DNA from: Gammaproteobacteria bacterium
GTDB taxonomy: Bacteria; Pseudomonadota; Gammaproteobacteria; Chromatiales; Chromatiaceae
DNA length: 33,367 nt
NCBI GenBank assembly: GCA_015490795.1
Contig: WFXD01000016.1
Location: forward strand, 1-33,367
Reading direction: 5' to 3'
How positions within the stretch are numbered: position 1 is the first letter of the stretch; each line of letters opens with the position of its first letter. Below are positions 199 to 18,846 of the stretch, one piece after another. The notes beneath the pieces were generated by a model, which was given only the letters and a program-made list of their open reading frames with translations, made no database searches and had not been told where the DNA came from. The position numbers and the translations under genes are program-made.

Positions 199-219
199 AA
201 ATGCGAACGATTCGCGTTT
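199..219. promoter_or_regulatory. Candidate operator palindrome over the -35 region
   Basis: A 21-base imperfect palindrome (8 of 10 pairs match) is centred on base 209. Its core is GCGAA (203-207), a 3-base spacer, then TTCGC (211-215), with AAA/TTT outer ends. It overlaps the start of the -35 hexamer of the iron-transporter promoter, a typical repressor position. It does not resemble the Fur consensus, so the regulator is unknown. Confidence 0.4.
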
Positions 220-245
220 ACACCTGTATGCAGTTGCTTTATAAT
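217..245 (+). promoter_or_regulatory. Sigma70-type promoter of the iron ABC transporter
   Basis: TTTACA (217-222) and a perfect TATAAT (240-245) are separated by exactly 17 bases. Transcription would begin near 252, giving a leader of about 30 bases before the ATG at 282. The -35 side is overlapped by the palindrome at 199-219. Confidence 0.7.
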
Positions 246-281
246 CAGTGTCCATCAAGGTTATTTTCTGGAAATTGCTCT

Positions 282-1304
282 ATGAATGATTGGATAAAAC
301 TATTAATCCCGACACTGGCACTGACCCTGCTGTCGGCTCCTGTGCTGGCAGCGGAAGAGGTTAATGTCTACTCTGCCCGCAAAGAGGCGCTTATCAAGCC
401 ATTGCTGGAGAGGTTTACCCAGCAGACCGGGATCAAGGTGAATCTGCTTACCGGCAAGGCAAAAACCCTGCTGAAGCGGCTGCAAAGTGAGGGGCGTAAC
501 ACGCCTGCTGATATGCTGCTGACAACCGATGCGGGTAATCTGCACGCCGCTACGGCTGCGGGTCTGCTGCAGCCTGTTGACAGCGCTCTCCTGAAGGCGG
601 CTGTGCCACGCAACCTGCGAGACCCCAATGACCGCTGGTATGCGCTCTCTATCCGCTCGCGAGTCATGGCCTATAGCAAAAAGCGGGTCAAGGCATCTGA
701 GCTGTCAACCTATGAGGATCTGGCTGATCCAAAGTGGAAGGGGCGGCTCTGCATCCGCTCATCCAGCAATATCTATAATCAATCACTGCTTGCATCGCTT
801 ATTCGTCACAATGGGGCAGAGCAGGCAGAAGAGTGGGCCAAAGGGGTTGTGGCCAATATGGCCCGGCCGCCAAAGGGCAACGATCGTGCCCAGGTCATGG
901 CGGTGGCTGTCGGCATCTGCGATATTGCCATCATCAACACCTATTATATGGGGGTGATGCTGGAAAAGGATGAGCGCCAGAAAAAGGCCGCCTCGCAGGT
1001 CTCTATCTTCTTCCCCAATCAGGGCGGACGTGGTGCCCACATCAACATCAGTGGCGCTGGCATCATTAAAGGTGCGAAGCATAGAGAGAATGCAATCAGG
1101 CTACTGGAGTTTTTGGTAAGTGATGAGGCGCAGCTGTGGTATGCCAAGGTGAATCATGAATATCCTGTCAAGGCGGGGATTCCCGTCAGTGATATTGTGA
1201 TGGCCTGGGGCTACCCCTTTAAACAGGATGGCCTCAATGTAGGTGAGCTGGGTAGATACAATGCCGATGCGGTAAAGGTGTTTGACCGGGCTGGCTGGAA
1301 ATAG
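282..1304 (+). CDS. Ferric iron ABC transporter, periplasmic binding protein (FbpA/FutA/IdiA-like)
   Basis: This 340-residue protein should capture ferric iron in the periplasm and deliver it to the permease encoded next. The start chosen at 282 gives a clean signal peptide: MNDWIK, a hydrophobic stretch to about residue 20, then an AxA-type site (VLAAEE). A frame extending back to 201 would add 27 residues that spoil the signal and would overlap the promoter. Mature features typical of the family are the NVYSARKE opening, the DMLLTTDAGNL segment, and the double tyrosine in NTYYMG, where family members place iron-ligand tyrosines. No strong Shine-Dalgarno precedes the ATG. Permease and ATPase genes follow on the same strand, supporting an iron importer. 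Exact substrate (bare ferric ion or chelate) cannot be read from sequence. Confidence 0.88.
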   Translation: MNDWIKLLIPTLALTLLSAPVLAAEEVNVYSARKEALIKPLLERFTQQTGIKVNLLTGKAKTLLKRLQSEGRNTPADMLLTTDAGNLHAATAAGLLQPVDSALLKAAVPRNLRDPNDRWYALSIRSRVMAYSKKRVKASELSTYEDLADPKWKGRLCIRSSSNIYNQSLLASLIRHNGAEQAEEWAKGVVANMARPPKGNDRAQVMAVAVGICDIAIINTYYMGVMLEKDERQKKAASQVSIFFPNQGGRGAHINISGAGIIKGAKHRENAIRLLEFLVSDEAQLWYAKVNHEYPVKAGIPVSDIVMAWGYPFKQDGLNVGELGRYNADAVKVFDRAGWK

Positions 1305-1320
1305 TCCGCCGCTACAGCAT

Positions 1321-1366
1321 CGCACCCAGGCGCAGGGGGAATATGTTCTCTCTGCGCCTGGGTGCG
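1321..1366 (+). terminator. Strong stem-loop between binding protein and permease genes
   Basis: Fifteen-base arms (1321-1335 and 1352-1366) are perfectly complementary around a 16-base loop, with GC-rich sequence beginning CGCACCCAGG. Only a weak TTTA follows, so it is more likely a partial terminator or mRNA-stabilising structure than a full stop. This fits the common need for more binding protein than permease. It ends 16 bases before the permease ATG. Confidence 0.65.
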
Positions 1367-1382
1367 TTTACAATCTAACGCC

Positions 1383-3071
1383 ATGCAACAGTTAACCACA
1401 GACCATTCGGCCCCACTGGCGCCGCTTCGTTTTGCATTCCGCCGCCCCTCCGGCTGGACGCTGAGTGCTGCCTTTGTTGCACTGATCATTGCAACACCTA
1501 TTCTGACGGTTCTGGGTTTTCTCTTTTATCCCAGCGGTGACACCTGGCAGCATCTGGTGGATACGGTTCTGGCCGATTATGTCACCAACTCGCTGCTGTT
1601 GATGCTGGGGGTTGCAGTGGGGGCGGGCAGCATCGGCATCTGCACTGCCTGGCTCACCAGCATGTACAGCTTTCCCGGCCGGCCGCTCTTTATCTGGGCA
1701 CTGTTGCTGCCTCTGGCCATGCCCGCCTATATCATTGCCTTTACCTATACCGGCATGTTTGAGGTGGCCGGTCCGGTGCAGGAGTGGATTCGGGAGCACT
1801 TCAATCTGCGCTACGGCGAATACTGGTTTCCAGAGATCCGTTCACTGGGTGGTGCTATCAGCATGTTGTCACTGGTGCTCTACCCCTATGTCTACCTGCT
1901 GGCGCGCTCGGCATTTCTGGATCAATCCGTCTGTGCGCTGGAGGCCAGCCGCACCCTGGGGTGCGGCCCCTGGCGCAGCTTCTTTTTTGTCGCCCTGCCG
2001 CTGGCACGCCCGGCAATCGTTACCGGGCTTTCACTCGCCCTGATGGAGACGCTGGCAGACTATGGCACCGTACAATATTTTGGCATCAGCACCTTCACCA
2101 CCGGCATCTTTCGCACCTGGTTCGGGCTGGATGACAGCGTGGCAGCTGCCCAGCTCTCTGGCCTGTTGATGACCTTTGTCTTTGTCCTGATCCTGCTGGA
2201 ACGCTGGTCACGCCGGCAGGCGCGTTTCCATCACGCCACCAATCGTTATCAAACCCTGCCTAATATCAAGTTGCCCCCCCTGATGGGCTGGATGGCTGCG
2301 CTCGCCTGCCTGTTGCCGCTCTTTTTTGGCTTCCTGCTGCCTGTTGGGCAGTTGGCCCAATGGGCGGTCATGACCTTTGCTGAGATGGTCAATGAAGATT
2401 TCTATGAACTGATGATGAACAGTTTTCTGCTGGCTGGTGCAGCTGCTGTGCTGACACTGATCCCGGCACTGATACTGGGTTACGGCAACCGCAATCATGC
2501 CACGCCGCTCTCCCGTTTTCTGGTGCGACTCTCTGCCATGGGGTACGCCATTCCCGGCACCGTTATTGCCATCGGTGTACTCATCCCGTTTGGCGCGCTG
2601 GACAACAGCGTTGATGGCTGGATGCTGGAGCATTTCAGCATCAGTACTGGCCTTATATTCAGTGGAACAGTTTTTATCCTGCTGTTTGCCTACATGGTGA
2701 GGTTCTTCACTGTGTCACTCAATACCATAGAGTCAGGCCTGGCCAAGATCAGGCCTTCGCTGGATGAATCTGCCAAAACGATGGGATATGGCGGCCTTGA
2801 GATACTGCGCCATGTGCATCTGCCCATCATGAAAGGCAGCCTGCTGACAGCGTTGATTATCGTCTTTGTCGATGTATTGAAAGAGCTGCCCGCCACCCTG
2901 GTGCTGCGGCCATTCAACTTCAATACACTGGCGGTGCGCGCCTTTGAACTGGCCTCTGACGAACGCCTGGCTGACTCCTCAACAGCCGCCATTGCGATTG
3001 TGTGCGTGAGCATTATCCCTGTGATTCTGCTCAGCCGGACCATTGCCCACTCACGAGCCGGTCAATCCTGA
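1383..3071 (+). CDS. Ferric iron ABC transporter, fused double permease (FbpB-like)
   Basis: This inner-membrane channel of about 562 residues belongs to the ferric-iron/thiamine permease type in which two six-helix halves are fused. Each half shows the EAA-type loop that docks on the ATPase: ASRTLGCGPW in the first and SAKTMGYGGL in the second. Roughly twelve hydrophobic helices are visible. The ATG at 1383 was preferred over an in-frame GTG at 1362, because the GTG lies inside the right arm of the 1321-1366 stem-loop. Neither has a recognisable ribosome binding site, so translation may depend on the stem-loop context. Its stop overlaps the start of the ATPase gene by one base, implying coupled translation. 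Confidence 0.88.
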   Translation: MQQLTTDHSAPLAPLRFAFRRPSGWTLSAAFVALIIATPILTVLGFLFYPSGDTWQHLVDTVLADYVTNSLLLMLGVAVGAGSIGICTAWLTSMYSFPGRPLFIWALLLPLAMPAYIIAFTYTGMFEVAGPVQEWIREHFNLRYGEYWFPEIRSLGGAISMLSLVLYPYVYLLARSAFLDQSVCALEASRTLGCGPWRSFFFVALPLARPAIVTGLSLALMETLADYGTVQYFGISTFTTGIFRTWFGLDDSVAAAQLSGLLMTFVFVLILLERWSRRQARFHHATNRYQTLPNIKLPPLMGWMAALACLLPLFFGFLLPVGQLAQWAVMTFAEMVNEDFYELMMNSFLLAGAAAVLTLIPALILGYGNRNHATPLSRFLVRLSAMGYAIPGTVIAIGVLIPFGALDNSVDGWMLEHFSISTGLIFSGTVFILLFAYMVRFFTVSLNTIESGLAKIRPSLDESAKTMGYGGLEILRHVHLPIMKGSLLTALIIVFVDVLKELPATLVLRPFNFNTLAVRAFELASDERLADSSTAAIAIVCVSIIPVILLSRTIAHSRAGQS

Positions 3072-4162
3072 TGACAGCGCAACTGCAACTTAACAAGGTC
3101 TCTGTCCGGCTTGGTGGTCAAAGCATCGTAAACGATATCAGCCTGAAGCTGGAACCGGGAGAGATCGGCTGCCTGCTGGGACACAGCGGCTGCGGAAAAA
3201 CCACCCTGCTCAGAGCTATTGCAGGTTTTGAGCAGCCTGCATCGGGTGAGATACTGCTGCACGGCAAGCCGGTCGCCAGCCGACAGATCATGCTGCCACC
3301 AGAGCAGCGAAACGTGGGCATGGTGTTTCAGGATCTGGCGCTTTTCCCCCATCTGACCGTTGGCCAAAATATTGCCTTTGGCATGCGCCGTTGCAGCAAA
3401 GAGGAGATCCGCCAGCGCACCCAAATCCTGCTGGAGCTGGTTGGACTGCCACACCTGATCAAGCAGCATCCACATCAACTCTCCGGTGGGCAGCAGCAGC
3501 GCATTGCACTGGCTCGCGCCATGGCTCCCCGCCCCGATCTGCTACTGCTCGACGAGCCGTTCAGCAGCCAGGATGCTGAACGGCGAGAACAGCTGGCCAG
3601 AGAGGTGGGTGAAATATTGCGTGAAGATGGCATCACTGCCATGCTGGTCACCCATGATCAGCATGAGGCCTTTGCCATGGCCGACAGCATTGGCGTCATC
3701 AGTGGCGGCCGCCTGCTACAGTGGGACAGCCCCTACAATCTTTACCACTGTCCAAACTCCAGGGAGGTTGCCGACTTTATCGGGCAGGGTGTACTGGTCA
3801 AAGGCACAGTGCTTGAGGCTGGCAGGCTACAGACTGAACTTGGTGAAGTTTGTGGTGATTTTTCCCAGTCTTTTCCGGCTGGCACAGAGGTCGATCTTTT
3901 GGTTCGGCCGGACGATATTATTCATGACGACCATAGCGATACTTTTGGTTGCGTAATCCAAAAGGCCTTTCGCGGTGCTGAATATATGTACACATTGCGC
4001 CTCTCCTGCCGCACGGATGTGCTCTGTCTTGCCCCCAGCCACCATGATCATAAAATAGGCGAGAAGATCGGCATCCGGCTAGAGCTGGATCACCTGGTGA
4101 TATTTCTCGTTTCAGAGATAAACAGAACGAAGGGAAACCTGCGCTGTAACCCTTTGCTGTAA
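3071..4162 (+). CDS. Ferric iron ABC transporter, ATP-binding protein (FbpC-like)
   Basis: This 363-residue ATPase powers the importer. It has Walker A GHSGCGKTT (residues 37-45), the signature LSGGQQQRIALARA, Walker B LLLLDEP and the switch histidine in LVTHDQHEAFAMAD. A C-terminal TOBE-like region, usual for this subfamily, follows. The D-loop reads SSQD, where SNLD or SSLD is commoner. The start at 3071 overlaps the permease stop (TGATG); an in-frame upstream start at 3002 would run deep into the permease. The protein extends about 15 residues past the usual LELDHLVIF end, and that tail lies opposite the 3' end of the Kelch gene. Confidence 0.9.
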   Translation: MTAQLQLNKVSVRLGGQSIVNDISLKLEPGEIGCLLGHSGCGKTTLLRAIAGFEQPASGEILLHGKPVASRQIMLPPEQRNVGMVFQDLALFPHLTVGQNIAFGMRRCSKEEIRQRTQILLELVGLPHLIKQHPHQLSGGQQQRIALARAMAPRPDLLLLDEPFSSQDAERREQLAREVGEILREDGITAMLVTHDQHEAFAMADSIGVISGGRLLQWDSPYNLYHCPNSREVADFIGQGVLVKGTVLEAGRLQTELGEVCGDFSQSFPAGTEVDLLVRPDDIIHDDHSDTFGCVIQKAFRGAEYMYTLRLSCRTDVLCLAPSHHDHKIGEKIGIRLELDHLVIFLVSEINRTKGNLRCNPLL

Positions 4163-5520
4163 AAATTTCTCATTAGCGTGCCATTGGGATAGCTGATGCG
4201 ATCCCCCACTTTCAGCTCCTTTGCCGGTGCTGCCAGCCATATTACATTGTTATTATCTTCACGTACCTGCAGATAGCTGTAGAGCTTCTGCCTGAAGTGC
4301 TGAAGAATAACTCCCTCATGTGGCAATGGCGGTTTATGTTGCTCGCGCAGGTCGCTGGCTGCTTTATGTCGTGCCACCTCTGCGGCCGTACCCCAATATC
4401 CAATGTCGCCATTTTCATTAAAACCGGCATAAAAGACATCGCGTAGATAGGCTCGCCCATCGCCACCGCCCAGCAGATAGATCCTGCCATTGATAACAGC
4501 AGCACTGGCGCCACCAACAACCGTGGGGGTTGGGGTGGTGTATTCCCAACTGGAAAGCGTACCCTCTTTTAGGATTTTTGAGCGTTCCACCGTGTTAAGG
4601 TGGGTTGCTCCGGTAAGCCCGCCAATGGCATAAAGGGTCCCGTTATGCACTGCGGTTGCCAGTGCATAACGCCCCGTCTGAAGTGGTGATGTTCTTTTCC
4701 ACGGAAGAAAAAAGCCCTCTTCATCTGTTTTGCTCCAGCTTACATCGGTAATTCCTGAGCCGCCGACCTTGCTGTGTCCACCGATATTGTAGATGCCCCC
4801 GCCAACCTTTACCCGGCCATGAACGTAACGCGCCACAAGCATAGGGTCGTTGGATACCAGCCACTCACCAACGGAGCCATCCGGATTTATCTCTGCCTGT
4901 TCAATCGTATCCAGTAAAATGCCGCCATATCCACCAAAGGCATAGAGGGTGTTTCCGATTACCGCCAACTTTACACAGCGCCGGGGGATGTTCATGATGG
5001 ACGGCTCTACTGTCCATTTACCCAGGGTGCCATCCCTCTTTATCTCTGCGCGCTCAACGGTTGCCAGCAGCTCCTTGCCATTTTGCCCACGACCACCGCC
5101 CACTGCATACAGATAGTTCCCATGCTGCACAACAGAAAAGTAGCCTCGCTCAATGTTCAGGCTTGGACCTGGCCGCCAGCTTGAGAGTGATCCGTCAGAG
5201 TTGATGCGTGCATATTCCGATGTTCTCAGGTAGGCAGGCCGCTGCTTTGCCCCGGCTGGTAAAGGCTTATCCTCCAGCCCCAAGCCACCGATCATGTAAA
5301 TATATTCAGTGGAGTGGTAGATGGCGGCCCCCGTACGCACTGCCTGCATGGATGCAGTCGCCTTCCAGCCGGCGATCCAGTGGCTTTTTTTATTTGATGC
5401 CTCCCTGTGTTCCACCCCCTCGCCACTGAACAAAACGGGGGATAGCATAAGAGCCGAGCTGAATATCAAAATATAAACAGGGCGCAAGAGCTTGTTAACC
5501 ATAACGTGTCGGGCTTCCAT
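4090..5520 (-). CDS. Exported Kelch-repeat protein with a C-terminal small beta domain
   Basis: The 476-residue product begins with a hydrophobic segment (about residues 11-32) that looks like a signal peptide or membrane anchor. Residues 55-390 hold about six Kelch-like blades with repeated GG turns, each followed by a pattern of the kind TVE-A-I--DG-L--W, so a beta-propeller is expected. From about residue 400 a separate domain follows (WLAAPAKELKVGDRI, then MRNFYSK), resembling small OB/SH3-like domains found in exported proteins near multiheme cytochromes. That assignment is from memory of the pattern. Two ATGs are possible (residues 1 and 7); neither has a good ribosome site. It converges on the iron ATPase gene with a 73-base overlap. 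Its ligand is unknown. Confidence 0.75.
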   Translation of the reverse strand: MEARHVMVNKLLRPVYILIFSSALMLSPVLFSGEGVEHREASNKKSHWIAGWKATASMQAVRTGAAIYHSTEYIYMIGGLGLEDKPLPAGAKQRPAYLRTSEYARINSDGSLSSWRPGPSLNIERGYFSVVQHGNYLYAVGGGRGQNGKELLATVERAEIKRDGTLGKWTVEPSIMNIPRRCVKLAVIGNTLYAFGGYGGILLDTIEQAEINPDGSVGEWLVSNDPMLVARYVHGRVKVGGGIYNIGGHSKVGGSGITDVSWSKTDEEGFFLPWKRTSPLQTGRYALATAVHNGTLYAIGGLTGATHLNTVERSKILKEGTLSSWEYTTPTPTVVGGASAAVINGRIYLLGGGDGRAYLRDVFYAGFNENGDIGYWGTAAEVARHKAASDLREQHKPPLPHEGVILQHFRQKLYSYLQVREDNNNVIWLAAPAKELKVGDRISYPNGTLMRNFYSKGLQRRFPFVLFISETRNITR

Positions 5521-5973: not shown

Positions 5974-7443
5974 TTATTTGTGCTCTGCTCTCAGCTTTGC
6001 AGCCTCTTCCCTGATCTCTACCAGATCCTTCTTCATTTCGGCCCAGCCGTACCAGTGCAGGTAGTCTGGATTGGAGTGAAAACCGCCCTGGAAGGTGCGC
6101 ATCCGATGCTCCAGAAACATGACATAGAGTGTCTGCTCAATGCCGCTTTGAACTTCGTAGAATCTGAGCAGATCCACGCTGGGCGGGTAATCTGTAGGTC
6201 GAGGAAGAATCCCGTCGTCATACAGCGCCTGGACGATGGTCACCGCTTCGGCCATCAGTTTGTCGGCCTCTTTGATCAGCCCGTCGATCTTCTCCAGCTC
6301 TCCTTTGGACCAGCTCTCGCCGTGACACTGGGCACAGACATCAAGCATCTTCTTCCGCTCGGCATCCCAGTCTGCTTTGGTGAGCCGGGCCATGTCAGCT
6401 GCTTTGACTGCACCGAGGCGGTCTGTGGGGTTGCCCTCGGCATCCAGTACGCCAAGCCCCTGGAGTATCGTGGCGCGATACCCCATCCACTCGGCATCCT
6501 CCTCTGGCAGTCTCAAGGCCAGAAAGCCCCAGGCGGTTGAGACATCATGCCCACCATCCGGCATGTGGCAGGTTACGCAGACAGGTGCCCGTGGGGTTTT
6601 TGTCGAGGCCTCATAGGGGTTGCTGTACCAATCCTTGATCTTCTTGCTGAAATCATAGTCATGCTTTTCGTTTTGGTAGATCATCCCGTGCTTGCTGGTG
6701 ATATACATCTCCCACTGGGGGTGATCAAAGCCCATGTGGCAGGTGCCGCATGCCTCTGGCTTTCTCGCCTCTTCGGCCGAGAAGAGGTGGCGGGTATGGC
6801 ATGAGTCACACTGCCCCTCATCACGCCCGATCTTGTGGCAGCCGCCGCACCCCTTTTCGCCAGCCATGATGGCTTCAGGCTGATCCTTGGTGCTTGGCAT
6901 GGCCTCCATGGCCAGCCAGGCCTTTGAGTGTTTGCCTTTGGCGAATTCGGCTACTTTGGTTTCATGGCACTGCTTGCAGTTGCTGGATGAGACCTCCAGC
7001 CGAACCTTTGAATTCTCACAGACGGTGGTCATGGACTGGATGCGTTCCGGTGCATCCTTGGTGGGGATGTGGCACTCATTGCAGCCAATACCCTTGGCAG
7101 CATGCTGTGACATCTTCCAGTCCCGAATGGCGCCGGCTGAAAGACCTTTCCTTACATGGCAGTCAAGACACTGCTTGCCCGGTTCTGTGATGACCGGTTT
7201 AAACTCCATCTTGCTCTCTTTTACGCTGACGTAGCCAACCATCGTTAGTGCAAAAAAGAGGATGAGGCTCAAAATGCCAATAAAGTATTTCATCAGGTTA
7301 TAGTCGCCCTCTTCTTCATCGGCAAAGAGTGTGCGTAAAGCTGTGCCGATGCTGGCTTTCCAGGACAACAGCTTCTCTGTTATTGGATCACTGGCTTGAT
7401 TGGCTGGTTTGGTCTTTTCAGACTCGCTCTGTTCTTCCTGCAT
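5974..7443 (-). CDS. Membrane-anchored octaheme cytochrome c, hydroxylamine-oxidoreductase (HAO) family
   Basis: The 489-residue protein has eight CxxCH heme sites, with first cysteines at about residues 92, 121, 156, 199, 212, 232, 289 and 370. One N-terminal membrane helix (about 50-72) follows a charged cytoplasmic tail of some 50 residues. Eight hemes, the KHSKAW and CGTCHMGFDHPQ segments and the C-terminal HSNPDYLHWYGWA region are HAO-family traits. Family members either oxidise hydroxylamine or reduce nitrite or hydroxylamine; the difference rests largely on a cross-linking tyrosine that cannot be placed here without alignment. It is the last gene of the Rieske-cytochrome b operon (41 bases after the b gene), in the position where a cytochrome c1 or f gene would be expected. 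It is therefore probably the electron-accepting subunit of that complex. Confidence 0.82.
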   Translation of the reverse strand: MQEEQSESEKTKPANQASDPITEKLLSWKASIGTALRTLFADEEEGDYNLMKYFIGILSLILFFALTMVGYVSVKESKMEFKPVITEPGKQCLDCHVRKGLSAGAIRDWKMSQHAAKGIGCNECHIPTKDAPERIQSMTTVCENSKVRLEVSSSNCKQCHETKVAEFAKGKHSKAWLAMEAMPSTKDQPEAIMAGEKGCGGCHKIGRDEGQCDSCHTRHLFSAEEARKPEACGTCHMGFDHPQWEMYITSKHGMIYQNEKHDYDFSKKIKDWYSNPYEASTKTPRAPVCVTCHMPDGGHDVSTAWGFLALRLPEEDAEWMGYRATILQGLGVLDAEGNPTDRLGAVKAADMARLTKADWDAERKKMLDVCAQCHGESWSKGELEKIDGLIKEADKLMAEAVTIVQALYDDGILPRPTDYPPSVDLLRFYEVQSGIEQTLYVMFLEHRMRTFQGGFHSNPDYLHWYGWAEMKKDLVEIREEAAKLRAEHK

Positions 7444-7484
7444 TTCTTTATTACCTCAAAAATAATTTATTTATATCTGAATGG

Positions 7485-8534
7485 CTATACCAGCGCTTCC
7501 CAGATGGTCATCGTGGAGAAGAAGATTGCAACGATGACGCCAATGGCAAGATTTACCCGCAACATGTTGGCCCCCCGGTCAGAGAAGCCACGGTCGATGT
7601 AGGGATAAATGGTAAACAGGGTGAAAAAGGCAAACACACTGAATAGCCCCGCCTCTCTCGGTGCAATGATGATCCAGCGATAGATTGCCGAAAAGTACCA
7701 GGGCGGTGAGACATCGGATGCCACTTCAAGCGGGTTGGCCGGGTCACCGATGGTCGGCGGGAAGATGGCAGCCATGTTGACAATTACGATCAGCAGCATC
7801 ACGGTTATCGCCAGCATCTTCAGCCCGTGCCCCGGGAAGAAGGGGTGTGTCCCCTGGTGTTTGGTTATTTTCGCAAAGCCGAGGGTGCGGATGGCAATGA
7901 TATGCGCACCAATCAGCAGCACAATCAGCAGCGGAAGCAGTTTGGTGTGCAGATCATATAGCCTGAGCAGGGTCAGTTCGGTAACATCCTCCCCCCCGCG
8001 CAACAGCAGGAAGATGGGGTCACCCACCACGGGGATCTGCCGAATCATGTCGGTTACAACGGTCATGCCCCAATAGGAGACATTGTCATAGACCAGTGAA
8101 TAGCCGGTAAAACCAAAGGCCAGCACAGTAAAGAACAGCCCCGCACCGAGGAACCATTTCAATCCGCCGCCGTCACGATAGGCGCGGGTAATAAAGACCC
8201 GGACTATATGTAACAACAGGGTGGCTACCATAAGGTTTACCGTAACCTGGTGGACGCCACGAATGAACCATCCAAGGTAGGTCTCTTCAGTGATTGCCTT
8301 TACACTGTCATAGGCCTGCCCCGGGAAGGGGATGTAATAAAAGGTCAGCAGGATGCCTGTTACCGCCAGAATGATAAACAGGATCAGCGGTGTTGCACCC
8401 AGGCAATATGAAAAACGGTTGAGATGATCAGGGATCTCCTCCTGAGCCACATCATAGGTTTTTTGCCAAAAGGATTTATTCTGCGTATCTCCAGACGTTT
8501 TTTTATCCCCGGCTTTTGTCTCAATAGTTTCCAT
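7485..8534 (-). CDS. Cytochrome b of b6f type (b6 and subunit IV fused)
   Basis: This 349-residue quinol-oxidising subunit has seven predicted helices, matching b6 (four) plus subunit IV (three). Heme-b histidines are H95 and H109 (13 residues between) and H196 and H211 (14 between); the second spacing is that of cytochrome b6, not mitochondrial cytochrome b. Cys44 in the FSYCLG segment aligns by eye with the cysteine that binds heme ci in b6f complexes. The quinol-site motif, usually PEWY, reads PPWY (residues 277-280). It lies 5 bases after the Rieske gene and 41 before the octaheme gene, so the three form an operon. Quinone type cannot be proven, though PEWY variants are associated with lower-potential quinones. 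Confidence 0.87.
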   Translation of the reverse strand: METIETKAGDKKTSGDTQNKSFWQKTYDVAQEEIPDHLNRFSYCLGATPLILFIILAVTGILLTFYYIPFPGQAYDSVKAITEETYLGWFIRGVHQVTVNLMVATLLLHIVRVFITRAYRDGGGLKWFLGAGLFFTVLAFGFTGYSLVYDNVSYWGMTVVTDMIRQIPVVGDPIFLLLRGGEDVTELTLLRLYDLHTKLLPLLIVLLIGAHIIAIRTLGFAKITKHQGTHPFFPGHGLKMLAITVMLLIVIVNMAAIFPPTIGDPANPLEVASDVSPPWYFSAIYRWIIIAPREAGLFSVFAFFTLFTIYPYIDRGFSDRGANMLRVNLAIGVIVAIFFSTMTIWEALV

Positions 8535-8539
8535 TTGGG

Positions 8540-8986
8540 TTACGCCACATCAAGTTTGATATAAACGCTCTTGCCGCGTTTGACGACTTCATACTGATCA
8601 AGTGGTCGTGGTGGTGGGCCGGATATGTTTTTGCCATTGCGGTCAAAAACACCGTTGTGACAGGGGCAGTGAAATTGATCATTTGCGTGATCCCAGGAGA
8701 TCAGGCAGCCAAGGTCGGTGCAGACGCGGGAGTAGGCGTTAAACCCCTCTTCACTTTGTAGCAACGCGACCTTTTTACCCGCGACATCAAAAAATTTTGC
8801 ACCGTCTCCGCTCAGATCATCTGCCTTTCCCAGCAGGATTTCACTGCTCTTTTTTGCCGCCACATCCGGCATAAGAAACTGCATGAATCTTGCGCCCATT
8901 GCACCTAGCCCGAGGGTCAAGCCAAGGGTCATAAAGGCGCCACTTAAAAAGCGCCGCCGTTCAGGGTTGTTGTTTACGACTGACAT
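8540..8986 (-). CDS. Rieske iron-sulfur protein with an altered cluster motif
   Basis: The 148-residue protein has a twin-arginine-type N-terminus (RRRFL, residues 10-14) followed by a hydrophobic helix (about 17-38), the usual uncleaved anchor of Rieske subunits. Box II is CPCHNG (residues 107-112) and a typical GPPPRPL follows. Box I, normally CTHLGC, reads CTDLGC (89-94): Asp91 (codon GAC, 8714-8716) stands where the first histidine ligand of the 2Fe-2S cluster should be. The other ligand positions (Cys89, Cys107, His110) and the disulfide cysteines (94, 109) are kept. The protein should pass electrons from quinol at cytochrome b to the octaheme subunit, unless the substitution changes the cluster. 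It is first in the operon. Confidence 0.85.
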   Translation of the reverse strand: MSVVNNNPERRRFLSGAFMTLGLTLGLGAMGARFMQFLMPDVAAKKSSEILLGKADDLSGDGAKFFDVAGKKVALLQSEEGFNAYSRVCTDLGCLISWDHANDQFHCPCHNGVFDRNGKNISGPPPRPLDQYEVVKRGKSVYIKLDVA

Positions 8987-9055: not shown

Positions 9056-10366
9056 TTAGTTGTTGGTGTAGCCTGTTTCACCATGCTCAGAGAGATCAAT
9101 ACCTATCTGCTCCTCCTCCTCGGTTACTCTGAGGCCGATGATGGGATCAAGTACGATCAACAGGACGTAGGTGACACCAAAGGCATAGATGCCTGTTCCG
9201 AGGATTGAGGCTATCTGTTTAAACAGTAGTGTCATATCACCAAAGAAGAGGCCATCAGCGCCTGCGGCATTAATGGCAGTTGATGCAAACAGGCCGGTTG
9301 CCAATGCGCCCCAGGCCCCGCCGATACCGTGAATACCAAAGGCGTCCAGTGAATCGTCATAACCCAGCATGGGTTTGATCAGGCTGACGGCCATGTAGCA
9401 GATGATGCCGGCGCCAAAGCCAATCACGATGGCGCTCATTGGCCCTACAAATCCTGCCGCAGGAGTAATGGCGACCAGTCCGGCAATAGCGCCTGATGCT
9501 GCACCCAGGGCGGTAGGTTTGCCCTGCTGCTTCCATTCAATCCAGAGCCAGCCAATAATGCCAGCGGCAGCAGCAAGCTGTGTGGCCACAAAGGCGCTGC
9601 TGGCCAAAGATCCAGAGGTCAGTGCGCTGCCGGCATTGAATCCAAACCAGCCAAACCAGAGCAGGCCTGCACCCAGCAGCGTCATGGGAAGATTGTGGGG
9701 AGGCATGTGGTCACGCCCATAGCCTCTGCGCTTGCCCAGCACTATGGCTGCGGCAAGGGCGGATACACCAGAGCTGATATGCACCACCGTGCCACCGGCA
9801 AAATCCAGTGCCCCCAGCTCGCCGATCCAGCCGCCACCCCAGACCCAGTGACAGATGGGGTCGTAGACAATGGTTGACCAGATAACGATAAAGATAAGGA
9901 AGGAGGAGAACTTCATCCGCTCTGCAACAGCGCCACTGATGAGCGCTGGCGTAATGATGGCAAACATCATCTGGAAGATCATAAAGGAGCTGTGCGGGAT
10001 GGTTTCGGCATACGCGCTGGGTTCAGCGCCCACGCCACTCAGCCCCAGCCACTTCAGGCTGCCGATAATGCCGCCAACATCCGGGGCAAAGGCAAATGAG
10101 TAGCCCATTATGGCCCACTGTATCGAAATGACAGCCAGGGCCGAGAAGCTGTACATAATGGTATTGAGCACATTCTTCTGCCGAACCATGCCGCCATAAA
10201 ATAGCGCAAGCCCTGGCACCATGAGCATGACAAAAGCGGCGCATACCAGTATCCAGGCGGTATCTGCGCTATCGATTGTGGAGGCTGCATCAGCAGCATA
10301 TGCAGTTGCTGAGCAAAGGCATGAAAGGAGTATTGCGGCTAAAAATTTCTGCACAACGTTGGTCAT
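9056..10366 (-). CDS. amt: Ammonium transporter (Amt/MEP/Rh family)
   Basis: This 436-residue channel protein carries ammonium across the inner membrane. It opens with a cleavable-looking signal (MTNVVQKF, then AYAADA) and has the standard eleven-helix Amt body with GLALFYGGMVR. The paired pore histidines sit in VVHISSGVSAL and GIHGIGGAWGALATGLF. The ATG at 10366 was chosen over 10399 because GGGGAA lies about 10 bases upstream and the signal then begins cleanly. The C-terminus keeps the acidic EEEEQIG segment and a final HGETGY, the tail that in this family responds to GlnK; no glnK is adjacent. The regulatory region at 10457-10690 predicts NtrC/sigma54 control, that is, expression under nitrogen limitation. 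Confidence 0.93.
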   Translation of the reverse strand: MTNVVQKFLAAILLSCLCSATAYAADAASTIDSADTAWILVCAAFVMLMVPGLALFYGGMVRQKNVLNTIMYSFSALAVISIQWAIMGYSFAFAPDVGGIIGSLKWLGLSGVGAEPSAYAETIPHSSFMIFQMMFAIITPALISGAVAERMKFSSFLIFIVIWSTIVYDPICHWVWGGGWIGELGALDFAGGTVVHISSGVSALAAAIVLGKRRGYGRDHMPPHNLPMTLLGAGLLWFGWFGFNAGSALTSGSLASSAFVATQLAAAAGIIGWLWIEWKQQGKPTALGAASGAIAGLVAITPAAGFVGPMSAIVIGFGAGIICYMAVSLIKPMLGYDDSLDAFGIHGIGGAWGALATGLFASTAINAAGADGLFFGDMTLLFKQIASILGTGIYAFGVTYVLLIVLDPIIGLRVTEEEEQIGIDLSEHGETGYTNN

Positions 10367-10380
10367 TGATGTTTCCCCGT

Positions 10381-10427
10381 CCAATAACAGTCCCGACACT
10401 GCTTATTACAGTACGGCAAATTATTGG
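10381..10427 (-). other. Possible leader stem in the amt mRNA
   Basis: CCAATAA (10381-10387) and TTATTGG (10421-10427) are perfect complements, with a small inner pairing CAGT/ACTG. The whole lies between the predicted transcription start (about 10446) and the amt start codon. The stem is AT-rich and may be marginally stable. Confidence 0.3.
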
Positions 10428-13904: not shown

Positions 13905-15293
13905 ATGATCAGACTGTTTGGACATTATATATCAAGACACTTCTTGCTGCTTGGAGTAGTCGAGTTGGCGCTGTTTTTTTTGGCGCTGTTCGCCGGGTAC
14001 TTTGTGCAGTACCCATTGGAGCAACTTCAGCGGGCGATATTTGAGCAGCACCTGCTCATGGTCGCCGTACTGTTTGCTGTTGTAATGTTGATTTCAATGG
14101 TGTCAATGGGGGCCTACCAGCGCGGCCTTCAGGGTAGAGCCGATCTTATTTTGCGTACCGGACTGGCATTTTTATTTGCTTCAATGGCCTTGACGCTGGC
14201 CTTTTTTGCCTTCCCTGAGTTGTCACTTGGGCGTGGTGTTTTCGCGTTTGCACTGCTCTTCTCTTTTGTCATGGTGCTGCTGGTAAGAGAGTTCTATATT
14301 CATATAGCCGGGGCAGAGGCGTTTAAACACAGGCTGCTGGTATTGGGAACCGGGAAGAATGCCAGGTTGATACATGATCTGGAAGATGTGGGGGTGGGCT
14401 TTACAATAGCAAAGTTCCTCCATCTGCATGACAAGGATGATGTCATTCCCAAACCGAGACAAATTGAGTTGGGCGAATCCCTGTTGGCACTGGCCTTCAA
14501 AGAGGGGATTGATGAGATTGTGGTGGCCGTTGATGACCGGCGCCGGCGTCTTCCCGTGGATGATATTATTGATTGCAAAATGAGTGGCATTCGTGTCTAT
14601 GACTTGCTGGGGTTTCTGGAGAAGGAGACCGCCTGTGTCAAGATAGACCTTCTCTACCCAAGCTGGATTCTGTTTTCAGGGGGATTTAACATGGGGGTTT
14701 TTGCCAGGCACGGCAAACGCCTGCTGGATATTGTGGTAAGTACCTTTATGCTGATCTGTTTGTCCCCCGTTATGTTGCTGGTTGCCATTGCAAGCCTGAT
14801 TGATTCACGTTTTCAAGATCCGATTTTTTTCAAACAGGTTCGAGTTGGGCAAAATGGAAAACCCTTTAACGTCTACAAGTTCAGAAGTATGCGCACCGAT
14901 GCCGAAGCTGATGGCATAGCACGCTGGGCAACAAAAAATGATTCACGAGTGACCGCGCTTGGGCGCATGATGCGCAAAACAAGGCTGGATGAGTTGCCGC
15001 AGCTGGTTAATGTTTTGCTGGGTGATATGAGCATGGTAGGCCCGCGCCCGGAACGGCCGGAGTTTGTTGAACAGCTATCCAGGGAGATCCCTTACTACCC
15101 TGAGCGTCATCGTATGAAGCCCGGTGTGACAGGCTGGGCTCAATTGCGATATCCGTATGGCGCAACAACAGAGGATGCCCGGCGCAAACTGGAGTATGAC
15201 CTCTACTATGTGAAAAATGCCAGCCTCTTCCTTGATCTGAATGTGCTGATCCAGACCGTTGAGGTTGTGCTGTTTGGCAAAGGTGCGCAATAG
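13905..15293 (+). CDS. Polyprenyl-phosphate sugar transferase, PEP-CTERM/EPS system type (EpsB-like)
   Basis: This 462-residue initiating transferase moves a sugar phosphate onto a membrane lipid carrier to begin exopolysaccharide assembly. Four N-terminal helices (to about residue 125) precede a nucleotide-binding-like middle domain with [11 protein letters not shown] fifth helix near residue 275 precedes the C-terminal bacterial sugar-transferase domain, with [28 protein letters not shown] and [11 protein letters not shown]. The order and neighbourhood (PrsK, PrsR and PrsT follow) match the sugar transferase that accompanies PEP-CTERM systems. The ribosome site is a GAGG about 13 bases upstream, rather far. 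The gene begins a plus-strand run ending at 21627. Confidence 0.88.
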
Positions 15294-15342
15294 CTTTTTG
15301 CTGCCCTCCTGAAAGCCTTGATATGAATGTGTCTCCATAACA

Positions 15343-17442
15343 ATGTTTGAATTTGGGGTTTTAGGCTATTCAGCTGCCGCGCTCGCCTTCTTTGTCTTTG
15401 CGGCACTGCTCTCAACCAGTTGGCGAGGCAAAACACAGGGTGGAATGCTGCTGCTTGCAGCACTGATTACCTCGATATGGGCTGCAATCTTAGCTGTACA
15501 GGCAGCCTATCAGGTGGTACCCGTGGCACTGGTTTGGGCTGTAGAGGTATTGCGTGCGCTTGCATGGCTGGCCTTCCTGATAAGGCTGCTGCTGCCACCC
15601 ACTGGAGAGCGGAGCAGATATGCCCACCATTTAAAGACTGTACGGACACTGGTTTTTCTTCTTTGCCTCCTCCTGATTATTCCCTTTGACGATCTCCTGC
15701 TATTCAATACTGAAATTCCATATTTTAATCTTGGTTTCGATCTGAGGTTTTTGGGCCAGGTACTGCTTGCACTGTGCGGCGTGCTGCTGGCTGAGCAGCT
15801 GTTTAGAAATACCCCTGCTGATGAGAGATGGGGCATAAAATACCTCTGCCTTGGTCTTGGAGGCATATTTGTATTTGATTTTTATCTGTTTTCAGATGCT
15901 CTGCTGTTCAGGCGAATTGATGGTGATATCTGGTATGCCAGAGGTGCTGTCAATGCCTTGATTGTTCCACTGATCGCTGTTGCCTCCGCGCGCAACCCCC
16001 AATGGTCAGTTGACCTGTTTGTCTCCCGGCGAATGGTCTTCTATACCACCTCACTGTTTGGTGCCGGTCTCTACATGCTGTTGATGGCCGTGGCGGGTTA
16101 CTACGTCAAACTCTATGGTGGAGAGTGGGGAACAATACTCCAAATCACCTTTATATTTGCCGCCGGTATAGGGCTGCTTGCCATCCTTCTCTCAGGCTCT
16201 TTAAGAGCCAGGCTAAAGGTCTTTTTAAATAAGCACTTCTTCAACTATCGCTATGACTATCGTGAAGAGTGGCTGCGGCTCATACATGTCCTGTCGGGTG
16301 AAGGGGAGGAGAAACCACTGCAAGAGCGGGCCATTGCAGCGATAGCGGGCATAGTGGAAAGCCCGGGTGGGCTGCTGTGGTTGCGAGAGGGCAAAGGGGC
16401 GTATAGCAATGTAGCCTGCTGGAATCTGCCAGAAGTTGGCGTGAAGGGCAGTTCGGGGCTGGAGTCATTAATGGCGTTTTTCGAACAGCGACAGTGGGTG
16501 GTCAACCTCGAAGAGTACCTTGAAGACCCCTCCTTTTATTCTGACCTGGAGCTGCCTGACTGGCTGCTGGGGCTGGAGCGCGCATGGCTTTTGGTTCCGC
16601 TGCTGCATGACGCAAGGCTACAGGGGTTTGTGTTGCTGGCAACCCCGCGGGCGCGGCATACCCTGAACTGGGAAAATATGGATCTGCTCAAGACAGCGGG
16701 TTGTCAGGTTGCCAGTTATCTGGCGCTAAACAGAGCCGCGATAGCGCTGGCAGAAGCCCAGCAGTTCGAAGGGTTCAACCGGCTTTCGGCATTTGTGATC
16801 CATGACCTGAAAAACCTGATTGCACAACTCTCATTAGTTACAAAAAATGCAGTCCGCCATAAAAACAACCCAGAGTTTATTGATGATGCCATGCAAACCA
16901 TTGATAATTCTGTATCTAAAATGAGCCGCTTAATGGCACAGATGCGCAGCGCCATGCCGGGGGACAGCCGGTCTCAAATTGAGCTCAACGCCATGCTTCG
17001 CGATTTGGTTCTTGAGCGCTCCAGCCAGCCCCCGGTGCCGGTATTCAGTGGGGTGAGTGAAGATACTATAATTCTTGCAGACAGAGACCGCATGAGCGCG
17101 GTCTTTGGGCATGTCATACAAAATGCCCAGGATGCGACACCGCCGGATGGGTGTGTTGAGATTAAGCTGCATGTTGCATCCGGGCAGGCTATAGTTGAGG
17201 TGCGCGATACAGGCCTGGGCATGGATGAGGCATTTATCAGGGAACGTCTCTTCCGCCCGTTTGACTCGACCAAGGGGCTGACTGGCATGGGGATAGGGGC
17301 TTATGAGTGTCGTGAATTTGTAAAGGCCATTGGCGGGCAGGTGCTGGTCTCCAGCGCACCAGGTGCCGGAACCCTCTTCACAATGGTGCTGCCATTGGCG
17401 CCGACTGCGTTCACTGAAAAACCAAAACCTGAAAAACAGTAA
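15343..17442 (+). CDS. prsK: PEP-CTERM system histidine kinase PrsK
   Basis: This 699-residue sensor kinase has an N-terminal region of about eight membrane helices (residues 5-285). A GAF-like sensing segment follows (about 310-465), then the phospho-accepting histidine H487 in FVIHDLKNL and an ATPase domain. The ATPase shows the N-box Asn594 (QNAQDATP), DTGLGMD and the glycine-rich GMGIGAYE. The domain layout and the following PrsR gene identify it as the kinase of the exosortase-linked two-component pair. It is expected to phosphorylate PrsR; the signal is unknown. The start has no clear ribosome site. Only 9 bases separate it from prsR. Confidence 0.9.
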   Translation: MFEFGVLGYSAAALAFFVFAALLSTSWRGKTQGGMLLLAALITSIWAAILAVQAAYQVVPVALVWAVEVLRALAWLAFLIRLLLPPTGERSRYAHHLKTVRTLVFLLCLLLIIPFDDLLLFNTEIPYFNLGFDLRFLGQVLLALCGVLLAEQLFRNTPADERWGIKYLCLGLGGIFVFDFYLFSDALLFRRIDGDIWYARGAVNALIVPLIAVASARNPQWSVDLFVSRRMVFYTTSLFGAGLYMLLMAVAGYYVKLYGGEWGTILQITFIFAAGIGLLAILLSGSLRARLKVFLNKHFFNYRYDYREEWLRLIHVLSGEGEEKPLQERAIAAIAGIVESPGGLLWLREGKGAYSNVACWNLPEVGVKGSSGLESLMAFFEQRQWVVNLEEYLEDPSFYSDLELPDWLLGLERAWLLVPLLHDARLQGFVLLATPRARHTLNWENMDLLKTAGCQVASYLALNRAAIALAEAQQFEGFNRLSAFVIHDLKNLIAQLSLVTKNAVRHKNNPEFIDDAMQTIDNSVSKMSRLMAQMRSAMPGDSRSQIELNAMLRDLVLERSSQPPVPVFSGVSEDTIILADRDRMSAVFGHVIQNAQDATPPDGCVEIKLHVASGQAIVEVRDTGLGMDEAFIRERLFRPFDSTKGLTGMGIGAYECREFVKAIGGQVLVSSAPGAGTLFTMVLPLAPTAFTEKPKPEKQ

Positions 17443-17451
17443 GGAAAAGAC

Positions 17452-18807
17452 TTGAGCGACAGACCCAAAAAACTGCTTGTTGTTGAGGATGACCCAGGGC
17501 TACAGAGCCAGCTGCGCTGGAGCTTTGAAGGCTTCGATGTTGAAGTGGCCGCTGACCGAACCACTGCACTTGCCCAACTGCGCAGATTTGAACCCAGCAT
17601 TGTCACCCTTGACCTCGGGCTGCCTCCAGACCCTGGAGGAACCAGTGAAGGCTTTGCAACGCTGCAGGAGATACTGGCATTGGCGCCCGATACAAAGGTC
17701 ATTGTCGTTACCGGGCATAACGACCGCAATAATGCAGTCAAAGCCATCGGGCTGGGGGCCTATGACTTTTATGAAAAGCCGATAGACCCAGATCTCCTGA
17801 ACCTGATTTTGGAGCGGGCCATACGGCTCTACCATCTGGAGCAACAGAATCGCCAGCTGGAGCAGCAGCAGGCCGCCACGCCATTGGATGGCTTGATTGC
17901 GGCAAGCCCCCAGATGCTAAAGGTCTGCCGCTCTATAGAAAAGCTGGCGCCAACCAACGTATCAACCCTGCTGCTGGGTGAAAGCGGAACAGGCAAAGAG
18001 GTGCTCGTAAAAGCACTGCACCGCCTAAGTGAGCGCTCCAGCAAACGGCTGGTCTCCATCAACTGCGCGGCAATTCCAGAGAATCTGCTGGAGAGTGAAC
18101 TGTTTGGCCATGAGAAAGGTGCCTTCACCGGGGCGGTAAAAACAACAATTGGCAAGATTGAGCATGCTGACGGAGGCATGCTCTTTTTGGATGAGATTGG
18201 TGACCTGCCGCTTTCTCTCCAGGCAAAGCTGCTGCGTTTTCTGCAAGAGAGAGTGATTGAACGCATCGGCGGTCGGCGTGAAATTGAAGTGGATGTACGG
18301 GTCGTATGTGCCACCCACCAGAATCTGCTTGGACAGATAAAAGAGGGGAAGTTTCGGGAAGACCTCTACTATCGCATAAATGAAGCCGCAATCGTGGTGC
18401 CGCCGCTGCGAGAAAGGGAGGGGGATGCCGTGCTGCTGGCACGCGCCTTTTTGCAGCATTTTATACAAGAGTTAAATCTGCCTGCGCGGGAGCTTTCCAA
18501 AGCGGCTTTAGAGGCTGTCGAAAACTATGAGTGGCCGGGCAATGTGCGCGAACTTGAAAATCGAATCAAACGCGCCCTGGTTATGGCCGACGAGATGCAG
18601 ATAACGCCCGAGGATCTTGAACTTGCAGACCTGGAGGTTGAAGTAGAACCTTTCAACCTTCGTGAAGTGAGAGAAGAGGCAGAGCGCAGGGCTGTCCTGC
18701 GGGCGCTTAACCATACGGATAACAACGTATCCCGCACAGCAGAGATGCTGGGCGTGACACGACCGACGCTCTACAATTTAGTGCGTAAATATAAACTTGA
18801 AATCTGA
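17452..18807 (+). CDS. prsR: PEP-CTERM system sigma54-dependent response regulator PrsR
   Basis: This 451-residue activator has a receiver domain (residues 7-125, phosphorylated Asp54, Lys109), then an AAA+ domain with Walker A GESGTGKE (176-183). The sigma54-contacting GAFTGA (223-228) and Walker B LFLDEIGD follow. A Fis-type helix-turn-helix closes the protein (AEMLGVTRPTLYNLVRKY). It starts with TTG at 17452, supported by AAGGAA 6 bases upstream. The intact GAFTGA means it should drive RpoN promoters of EPS and PEP-CTERM protein genes. No convincing sigma54 site was found before the sugar-transferase gene or the PEP-CTERM-tail gene here. Confidence 0.93.
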   Translation: MSDRPKKLLVVEDDPGLQSQLRWSFEGFDVEVAADRTTALAQLRRFEPSIVTLDLGLPPDPGGTSEGFATLQEILALAPDTKVIVVTGHNDRNNAVKAIGLGAYDFYEKPIDPDLLNLILERAIRLYHLEQQNRQLEQQQAATPLDGLIAASPQMLKVCRSIEKLAPTNVSTLLLGESGTGKEVLVKALHRLSERSSKRLVSINCAAIPENLLESELFGHEKGAFTGAVKTTIGKIEHADGGMLFLDEIGDLPLSLQAKLLRFLQERVIERIGGRREIEVDVRVVCATHQNLLGQIKEGKFREDLYYRINEAAIVVPPLREREGDAVLLARAFLQHFIQELNLPARELSKAALEAVENYEWPGNVRELENRIKRALVMADEMQITPEDLELADLEVEVEPFNLREVREEAERRAVLRALNHTDNNVSRTAEMLGVTRPTLYNLVRKYKLEI

Positions 18808-18846
18808 CTGGATTGGCAGACTGTTCACTTTGGAAGGTAAGCGCAA

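Follow-up and report, generated by a model that had tools for sequence, protein, structure and literature searches.

A conserved gammaproteobacterial operon for a Rieske/cytochrome b pair and a membrane-anchored octaheme cytochrome, with an altered Rieske ligand set and a candidate role in quinol-linked nitrite reduction

Introduction

Rieske proteins and b-type cytochromes encoded together with an octaheme protein of the hydroxylamine oxidoreductase (HAO) family are known from Caldithrix abyssi and from anammox bacteria. In Caldithrix abyssi the three genes lie in this order beside a Nap cluster, and the Rieske/b pair has been proposed to feed quinol electrons to the epsilonHao nitrite reductase (PMC5317091); this is the nearest published precedent found. 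The anammox case had been raised in a sequence-only reading of the locus studied here, and PMC12954380 and PMC12485887 do describe Rieske/b complexes with HAO-like subunits. The present analysis concerns a comparable locus in a member of the Chromatiaceae (Gammaproteobacteria bacterium, assembly GCA_015490795.1). The whole stretch analysed, 33,367 nucleotides of contig WFXD01000016.1, is called the window; the genes for a Rieske protein, a cytochrome b and a membrane-anchored octaheme cytochrome occupy its positions 5974-8986.

The direction in which octaheme proteins of this family work has been related to one position. In PMC12758564 reductive forms have 'Histidine at the key site', and in PMC8940962 epsilonHao is marked by a Trp preceded, eight residues upstream, by a Met; both treat enzymes without the cross-link Tyr as reductive. 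KsHAOr, the reducing HAO of Kuenenia, turns nitrite into nitric oxide (NO) with low activity and is described as soluble (PMC12485887).

The window operon is real, conserved and under selection. It is of a kind known already, of which the group to which it belongs, here clade A, is a variant. New in clade A are the loss of the box I His of the Rieske protein, a PPWY motif at the Qo site of cytochrome b and, in seven members, a foreign octaheme body on the complex's own anchor. These features, and an Amt gene upstream, go beyond what the sequence-only reading had noted.

Results

Organization of the operon

The genes of the operon are as follows.

5974..7443, minus strand: octaheme cytochrome c of the HAO family, membrane-anchored, 489 residues; hydrophobic segment 54-72; eight CxxCH motifs; Asp240-His241; Trp464
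7485..8534, minus strand: cytochrome b, fused b6/IV, 349 residues; His 95/109/196/211; Cys44 at the heme cn position; Qo motif PPWY
8540..8986, minus strand: Rieske protein, 148 residues; twin-arginine N-terminus ERRRFLSG; box I CTDLGC, with Asp91 at the His-ligand place; box II CPCHNG
9056..10399, minus strand: ammonium transporter Amt, 69 bases upstream of the Rieske gene

In the order of transcription the Amt, Rieske, cytochrome b and octaheme genes are separated by 69, 5 and 41 bases, and the transcription unit probably starts with Amt. The three tightly spaced open reading frames (ORFs) of the sequence-only reading, with gaps of 41 and 5 bases, were recovered on the minus strand, and its assignment of their products agrees with the domain searches. 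The Rieske protein matched PF00355 (E 2.5e-12), cytochrome b matched PF00033 (E 6.5e-45) and PF00032 (E 1.8e-4), as a fused b6/IV protein, and the octaheme, in which there are exactly eight CxxCH motifs and a single hydrophobic segment, matched Multi-haem_cyto PF13447 (E 9.8e-33). All NCBIfam matches of the three proteins score under the curated cut-offs, and they are thus divergent members of their families. Of the seven helices claimed for cytochrome b, a hydropathy scan gave 7 or 9 partly overlapping segments depending on the cut-off, which is consistent with a seven-helix protein and is not proof of it. No cytochrome c1 or f gene adjoins the operon, as had been stated; the octaheme gene stands there instead and, going by gene content alone, would take the place of c1/f.

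Conservation and selection

Relatives of the octaheme were sought in genome contigs, and the best 80 of at least 566 were examined. Amt, Rieske and cytochrome b genes precede the octaheme gene in six of these loci (L046-L051; cytochrome b is split in L048), and no such Rieske/b pair lies beside it in the other 74, several of which are on short contigs. Clade A, the window operon type, comprises nine operons: the window, L046, L047, L048, L049, L050, L051, L168 and L169. Its carriers are Sedimenticola-like bacteria and some 'Deltaproteobacteria'. (L046, JAKISI010000013.1, is labelled Candidatus Polarisedimenticolaceae; the genome of the same contig, G045, is listed under the window's genus, and the label is possibly a misnomer.) Amt lies directly upstream in all nine, in one or two copies. 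The neighbourhood of L168 (2973-15913) is one of nitrogen assimilation, with P-II (a match under its cut-off) before two Amt genes, then Rieske, cytochrome b and octaheme, NirB after the octaheme and NifH further on.

With a cytochrome b profile the complex was found in five of 210 genomes of the order, namely four of the six listed genomes of the same genus, its own included, and one of another genus. In the phylum of L050 it was found in 4 of 297 sampled genomes, a fifth match belonging to clade B (below). A Rieske profile matched in 156 of 395 genomes of that phylum, and the same four clade A members stood on top of the best 30 loci examined; in 369 sampled genomes of the window's class it returned the window's own gene and two others, both His-type. 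The ratio of nonsynonymous to synonymous substitution rates (dN/dS) was 0.03-0.21 in the 24 pairs, out of 26, that gave a finite dS; the pairs were formed among five clade A members, or four in the case of cytochrome b, and several dS values were near saturation.

The conserved linkage for which the sequence-only reading had called is present in the nine clade A operons and extends to more distant ones. Clade B Rieske-cytochrome b-octaheme operons were found in L170, L171 (Calditrichota), L172 and L173 (Kryptonia), their cytochromes b being 36-42% identical to those of clade A. L172 has a NapA-like protein upstream (416.6 bits, cut-off 904), and L173 has the same layout by inspection. A His-type Rieske gene was found in the next score band in 13 more genomes of the phylum of L050. 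It is followed by separate genes for b6 and subunit IV in 12 of the 13, and the start of a multiheme gene is visible within the stretches read in 10. In five of these split-b genomes (L208-L212) an octaheme-type gene follows in every case, with clade B octahemes as best matches (56-62%); eight heme motifs are present in L208, L209 and L210 (which runs to the contig end), and the sequence is cut off at seven in L211 and six in L212. The operons of this wider family match the layout published for Caldithrix abyssi (PMC5317091) and, less closely, Kuenenia R/b-3 (PMC12954380). Long proteins with one CxxCH lie beside such canonical Rieske/b-octaheme operons in L208 (3894-5582), L209 (3846-5516), L210 (3545-5206) and L171 (5040-6986). 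The one in L208 matches histidine kinases, and such proteins may be heme-sensing regulators.

Loss of a Rieske ligand and change of the Qo motif

The window Rieske protein does not have the Cys2His2 set of cluster ligands, as the box I His is missing and the box II CPCH is kept. In clade A the position is occupied by Asp in seven of nine proteins (CTDLGC) and by Asn in two (CTNLGC; L046 and L047). The recurrence of Asp in seven genomes rules out a sequencing error, and His100 and His106 of the window protein were ruled out as substitute ligands since neither is conserved within clade A. By comparison, the box I His is present in 38 of 38 Rieske proteins from outside the clade (L170-L174, L085, L113, L121, L124, L140, L179-L204, L206 and L207; mainly best-scoring loci). 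Five of these, which keep the His, come from Rieske/b pairs beside cytochromes with 9-18 heme motifs (L085 11628-16452, L113 1769-4608, L121 9367-15172, L124 973-3816 and L174 2310-9935). No relevant report of natural Rieske proteins lacking a His ligand was found in the open-licence literature, which is weak evidence of absence.

All four box cysteines, the box II His and the twin-arginine motif are intact in 9/9 clade A members. Such a motif is typical of proteins exported together with a cofactor. The quinol-facing His of bovine bc1 is the box II one, whose counterpart is present in clade A. The window model, with block-mean predicted local distance difference test (pLDDT) scores of 91-93 across residues 51-120, has the Rieske fold, the best match being 8hn2 (Z 14.7, root-mean-square deviation 2.7, 107 residues). 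The Rieske gene is under purifying selection: dN/dS is 0.07-0.21 in nine of ten pairs of five clade A members, the tenth being saturated, and the highest value, 0.21, is that of L046/L047, the two Asn carriers.

The cytochrome b has the four His heme ligands of b6 spacing (His 95, 109, 196 and 211, spacings 14 and 15; ligand role by alignment), and its best PDB relatives are b6 proteins. A Cys at the heme cn position is found in seven of the eight full-length clade A cytochromes b, L051 being the exception; the split-b group also has a cn-type Cys, hence this is no speciality of clade A. The Qo motif is PPWY in all eight; the split L048 gene, excluded from the comparison, has it in its second fragment. 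That gene (L048 6920-7941, the same as L143 5545-6566) is present as two overlapping ORFs between intact Rieske and octaheme genes, from an assembly error or a real frameshift. Outside clade A the motif is PEWY in eight fused cytochromes b, four of them of clade B, and PVWY in the bc1 cytochrome b of the window's own genome; PPWY was not seen in the 13-genome split-b set or in the other cytochromes b compared. PPWY is associated with low-potential quinones and the organisms that use them. In the cytochrome b tree clade A forms one group with support 100/100 on a single long branch (length 1.14); the loss of the box I ligand and the Qo change can both be mapped onto this branch. The change of His to Asp/Asn and of PEWY to PPWY suggests that the Rieske centre and the Qo site have been retuned, probably towards lower potential.

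Family and active site of the octaheme

The placing of the octaheme in the HAO family by the sequence-only reading agrees with both its sequence and its predicted fold. By sequence, the solved structure closest to it is that of the reducing HAO from Kuenenia (6h5l, E 1.1e-30), followed by HOX and HAO. The predicted structure (mean pLDDT 74.6; weak at residues about 131-220) matches 6h5l best (Z 23.4), with Z 21.2 for N. europaea HAO 1fgj. NrfA and ONR identities were ruled out, with Z 18.5-23.4 for HAO relatives against 9.5 for the best NrfA and 9.2 for ONR. The eight c-type heme motifs, together with the HAO fold of the model, are those of the family. The top NCBIfam match is hydrazine dehydrogenase (94.9, cut-off 900).

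Asp240-His241 and Trp464 are invariant across 28 aligned octahemes. The Asp-His pair, which we take to be the active-site pair distal to the catalytic heme, falls in a stretch that aligns with the solved HAOs. An ungapped count of eight residues past the conserved His/Met gives Tyr467 in 1fgj, presumably the residue cross-linked to the P460 heme, Tyr (chain position 415) in 4n4j, Trp in 6h5l and Trp464 in the window. By MAFFT, His463 falls in the Tyr467 column and the 4n4j Tyr two columns off, so that the alignment here may be off by about two residues. Of the genomic octahemes aligned, 94/94 have Trp at the cross-link position (identified by motif in 90 and by alignment in 4), and in the window protein it is flanked by Tyr461 and Tyr465, each conserved in at least 90% of the 28 sequences. 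The window octaheme thus lacks the cross-link Tyr of oxidative HAO, HOX and HDH. Its replacement by Trp makes nitrite reduction more likely than hydroxylamine oxidation, and the latter, which the sequence-only reading had kept as an alternative, is unlikely. We know of no tested member of the group that holds the window octaheme body.

Two octaheme bodies on one anchor

Clade A octahemes are of two types, RBa (window, L046-L049, the first copy of L050, and L051) and RBb (the second copy of L050, L168 and L169). In an octaheme tree of 52 rows, from which 45 of 72 standalone octahemes were left out, RBb grouped with clade B bodies (100/100, branch 3.4) and RBa with free-standing octahemes of Kryptonia, Armatimonadota, Acidobacteriota and others (96/90). 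The merged ORF L108 was excluded from the head alignment and the broken L125 was not entered. Anammox proteins were represented by aligned segments of three PDB chains only, on very long branches whose placement means little. The window body falls outside the clade of RBb and RBc bodies (100/100 split) and is not of epsilonHao type, a label attached to RBb/RBc by the Met-eight-before-Trp mark of PMC8940962 and not by epsilonHao sequences. Constraining RBa and RBb bodies together was rejected in an approximately unbiased (AU) test on 49 rows (p-AU 7.4e-7, a value strictly valid only for groups named before the tree was seen), though their cytochromes b form one clade.

L050 carries both octaheme types in tandem. 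The two copies are identical at 34/40 positions in residues 21-60, the anchor. Identity drops to 11/35 in 101-140 and 11/40 in 141-180 and recovers in part, to 23/40, in 201-240, a conserved heme region. Along the same span the identity of the first copy to the free-standing L053 protein goes from 8/29 to 34/40. The profile was computed for L050 alone; for the remaining six RBa proteins a shared anchor and body type are seen by alignment. A hydrophobic anchor is present in 14/14 complex-linked octahemes, and most free-standing ones start signal-peptide-like, as judged by eye. The tree, the AU test and the mosaic identity profile all speak against plain divergence of one octaheme lineage. The simplest account would be a fusion that joined the anchor and first heme of the complex to an octaheme body from elsewhere, of which L050 would be an intermediate that has survived.

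At least one octaheme match at E 1e-5 was obtained in 62 of 96 sampled genomes of the same family. Several matches in one genome were common, and some may be to multiheme proteins of other kinds. Genomes of the family that have no such complex (for example L030, L033, L034 and L036-L038) often carry other octaheme genes.

The host genome

The window's own genome is 2.76 Mb and 98.85% complete. Its contig C104 encodes a Rieske protein with CTHLGC, a 404-residue cytochrome b with PVWY and, by inspection, a 242-residue one-heme c1-like protein. With this ordinary petABC the window operon encodes a second Rieske/b complex, and its being the only one was ruled out. The sequence-only reading had been set to fall if a normal petABC lay elsewhere and the octaheme gene was not conserved beside the Rieske/b genes in relatives; the normal operon does exist, but relatives keep the octaheme gene next to the second pair of Rieske/b genes. 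By gene content, the window complex could also share the C104 c1-like protein. A further Rieske match lies on contig C56. An octaheme search at E 0.01 returned the window's own gene only. The genome encodes NarG (1893.7 bits, cut-off 1084.15) and, by inspection, NirB/NirD-like genes elsewhere; of the quinone genes UbiA scores above its cut-off and a MenA-like protein below (119.8 against 264 bits).

Other genes of the window

The operon has Amt as its upstream neighbour and a Kelch-repeat protein directly downstream of the octaheme, the latter without counterpart in L026. Positions 201-4162 and 4090-5520 hold a three-gene ABC importer (phosphonate-type matches under cut-off) and the Kelch-repeat protein. 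A sugar transferase, a histidine kinase, a sigma-54 response regulator and a 926-residue tetratricopeptide repeat protein follow in series at 13905-21627, which we take to resemble a PEP-CTERM/exopolysaccharide (Prs) cluster. Among the other large window proteins scanned, none had an evident link to the complex. Base composition was uninformative as to recent transfer (GC 0.533 in the operon, 0.531 in the rest of the window), as were promoter-like sites (3, against 4.8 in shuffles) and terminator-like sites (7, against 4.9, standard deviation 2.1).

Discussion

The operon is best read as encoding an accessory quinol-dependent nitrite reductase, in which a Rieske/cytochrome b pair would use the anchored octaheme reductase as its c-type acceptor and which would be accompanied by ammonium uptake; we hold this reading with evenly balanced confidence. 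Quinol would be oxidised at the Qo site of cytochrome b, and an electron would pass through the Rieske protein into the octaheme, entering at its first heme beside the membrane anchor. The hemes would then carry electrons to the HAO-like active-site heme, free of the Tyr cross-link, where nitrite would be reduced, most likely to ammonium or hydroxylamine and less likely only to NO. The NarG encoded in the genome may supply the nitrite, and Amt would import ammonium for assimilation. That the proteins form one complex, the direction of the electrons, the substrate and the product are deduced from the genes. With the altered Rieske and Qo site, the complex is perhaps retuned and of lower potential.

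The reading is supported by the gene order with Amt in 9/9 clade A operons, the closeness of the octaheme to the Kuenenia reducing HAO in sequence and predicted fold, the Trp at the cross-link position, purifying selection, the encoded NarG, the neighbourhood of L168 and the Caldithrix precedent (PMC5317091).

Several points weigh against this reading. The Rieske protein lacks a ligand that is normally required, so that electron transfer through it is not assured. No nitrate or nitrite gene adjoins the window operon, and the octaheme could reduce another substrate. Two of the six listed genomes of the same genus have no cytochrome b match at E 1e-60, which makes the trait dispensable. Ammonium as the product is a guess supported mainly by Amt, and it is less certain because KsHAOr, the closest solved relative, makes NO from nitrite (PMC12485887).

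What becomes of the altered Rieske protein separates two of the alternatives. It could be a structural remnant with no working cluster, with the b subunit and the octaheme acting as a quinol-octaheme reductase by direct transfer. The loss of the box I His in 9/9 proteins (Asp in seven, Asn in two), the accompanying loss of the Qo Glu and the fact that the top Rieske dN/dS falls between the Asn carriers L046 and L047 are in line with such a remnant. Against it stand the four cysteines, the box II His and the twin-arginine motif present in every member, a dN/dS of 0.07-0.21 in nine of ten pairs (the tenth saturated) and a model of Rieske fold at Z 14.7 to 8hn2; we regard a remnant as quite improbable. 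At the other end, the complex could be an ordinary one of the Caldithrix/anammox type, the Rieske change being near-neutral and the standard Q-cycle still supported. The same gene order and a similar anchor in clade B and split-b operons, and the four His ligands of cytochrome b, speak for this, and it deserves some weight even if it is unlikely: every clade A member has lost the ligand and carries PPWY, the cytochrome b of the clade sits on one long branch (1.14), and neither change was observed in the other proteins compared (His in 38/38 Rieske proteins, PEWY in 8/8 fused cytochromes b, PVWY in the own bc1).

The electrons could also flow in reverse, from hydroxylamine or another reduced nitrogen compound oxidised at the octaheme, through the Rieske/b pair, into the quinone pool. 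Membership of the HAO family speaks for this. The adjacent Amt could mean that the substrate is a reduced nitrogen compound, electrons would move more easily towards quinone from a Rieske centre of lower potential, and with the conserved Tyr461 and Tyr465 flanking the site an unusual cross-link is conceivable. Against it, Trp464 replaces the cross-link Tyr of oxidative HAO, HOX and HDH, as in the reducing Kuenenia HAO (PMC12758564), and reverse flow is very unlikely. A further reading, offered as tentative and itself on the doubtful side, is that of a natural one-His [2Fe-2S] Rieske family (Cys2-His plus Asp/Asn) working at a remodelled PPWY site, low-potential and possibly non-bifurcating, with an exchanged octaheme head on the kept anchor and entry heme; quinol oxidation would drive the formation of ammonium, and Amt uptake would be coupled to it.

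Two features would surprise a specialist, the absent Rieske ligand and the exchanged head. If the Rieske protein works with one His, clade A is a natural test of what the second His and the Qo Glu contribute when quinol is oxidised, a part of the bc1 mechanism that has been disputed for a long time. The mosaic make-up of the octaheme suggests that in Rieske/b complexes the anchor is fixed and the multiheme head on it can be exchanged. Quinol-linked nitrite reduction in Sedimenticola-like gammaproteobacteria, if true, would alter the reading of their nitrogen genes, because hao-like genes are easily mistaken for hydroxylamine oxidation.

Comparison with known systems

The system of Caldithrix abyssi (Cabys_2558-2557 for Rieske/cytochrome b, Cabys_2556 for epsilonHao) has, like the window, consecutive genes and no cytochrome c1, but it is Nap-linked and its octaheme is of epsilonHao type (PMC5317091). 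The comparable operons L171 (Calditrichota), L172 and L173 (Kryptonia) differ from the window in having CTHLGC, PEWY and octaheme bodies of another clade, and no Amt was found near them within the stretches read. In Kuenenia stuttgartiensis, R/b-3 (Kuste4569-4574) likewise joins a Rieske/b6-like complex with an HAO-like octaheme (PMC12954380 and PMC12485887). Its b6 and IV subunits are separate, and it includes a further hexa/octaheme cytochrome and an NAD(P) oxidoreductase subunit, neither of which is encoded in the window operon; its Rieske protein, measured at +303 mV, keeps both His, whereas that of the window is without the box I His.

KsHAOr (6h5l) and epsilonHao are, as the window octaheme, octaheme proteins of HAO fold with Trp for the cross-link Tyr. 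KsHAOr is described as a soluble protein (PMC12485887), whereas the window octaheme is membrane-anchored and encoded with Rieske/b genes. With canonical bc1/b6f the window complex has in common a Rieske protein and a cytochrome b with four His of b6 spacing and the heme cn Cys; it differs in having no c1/f in the operon, no box I His, PPWY at the Qo site and the octaheme as the likely partner.

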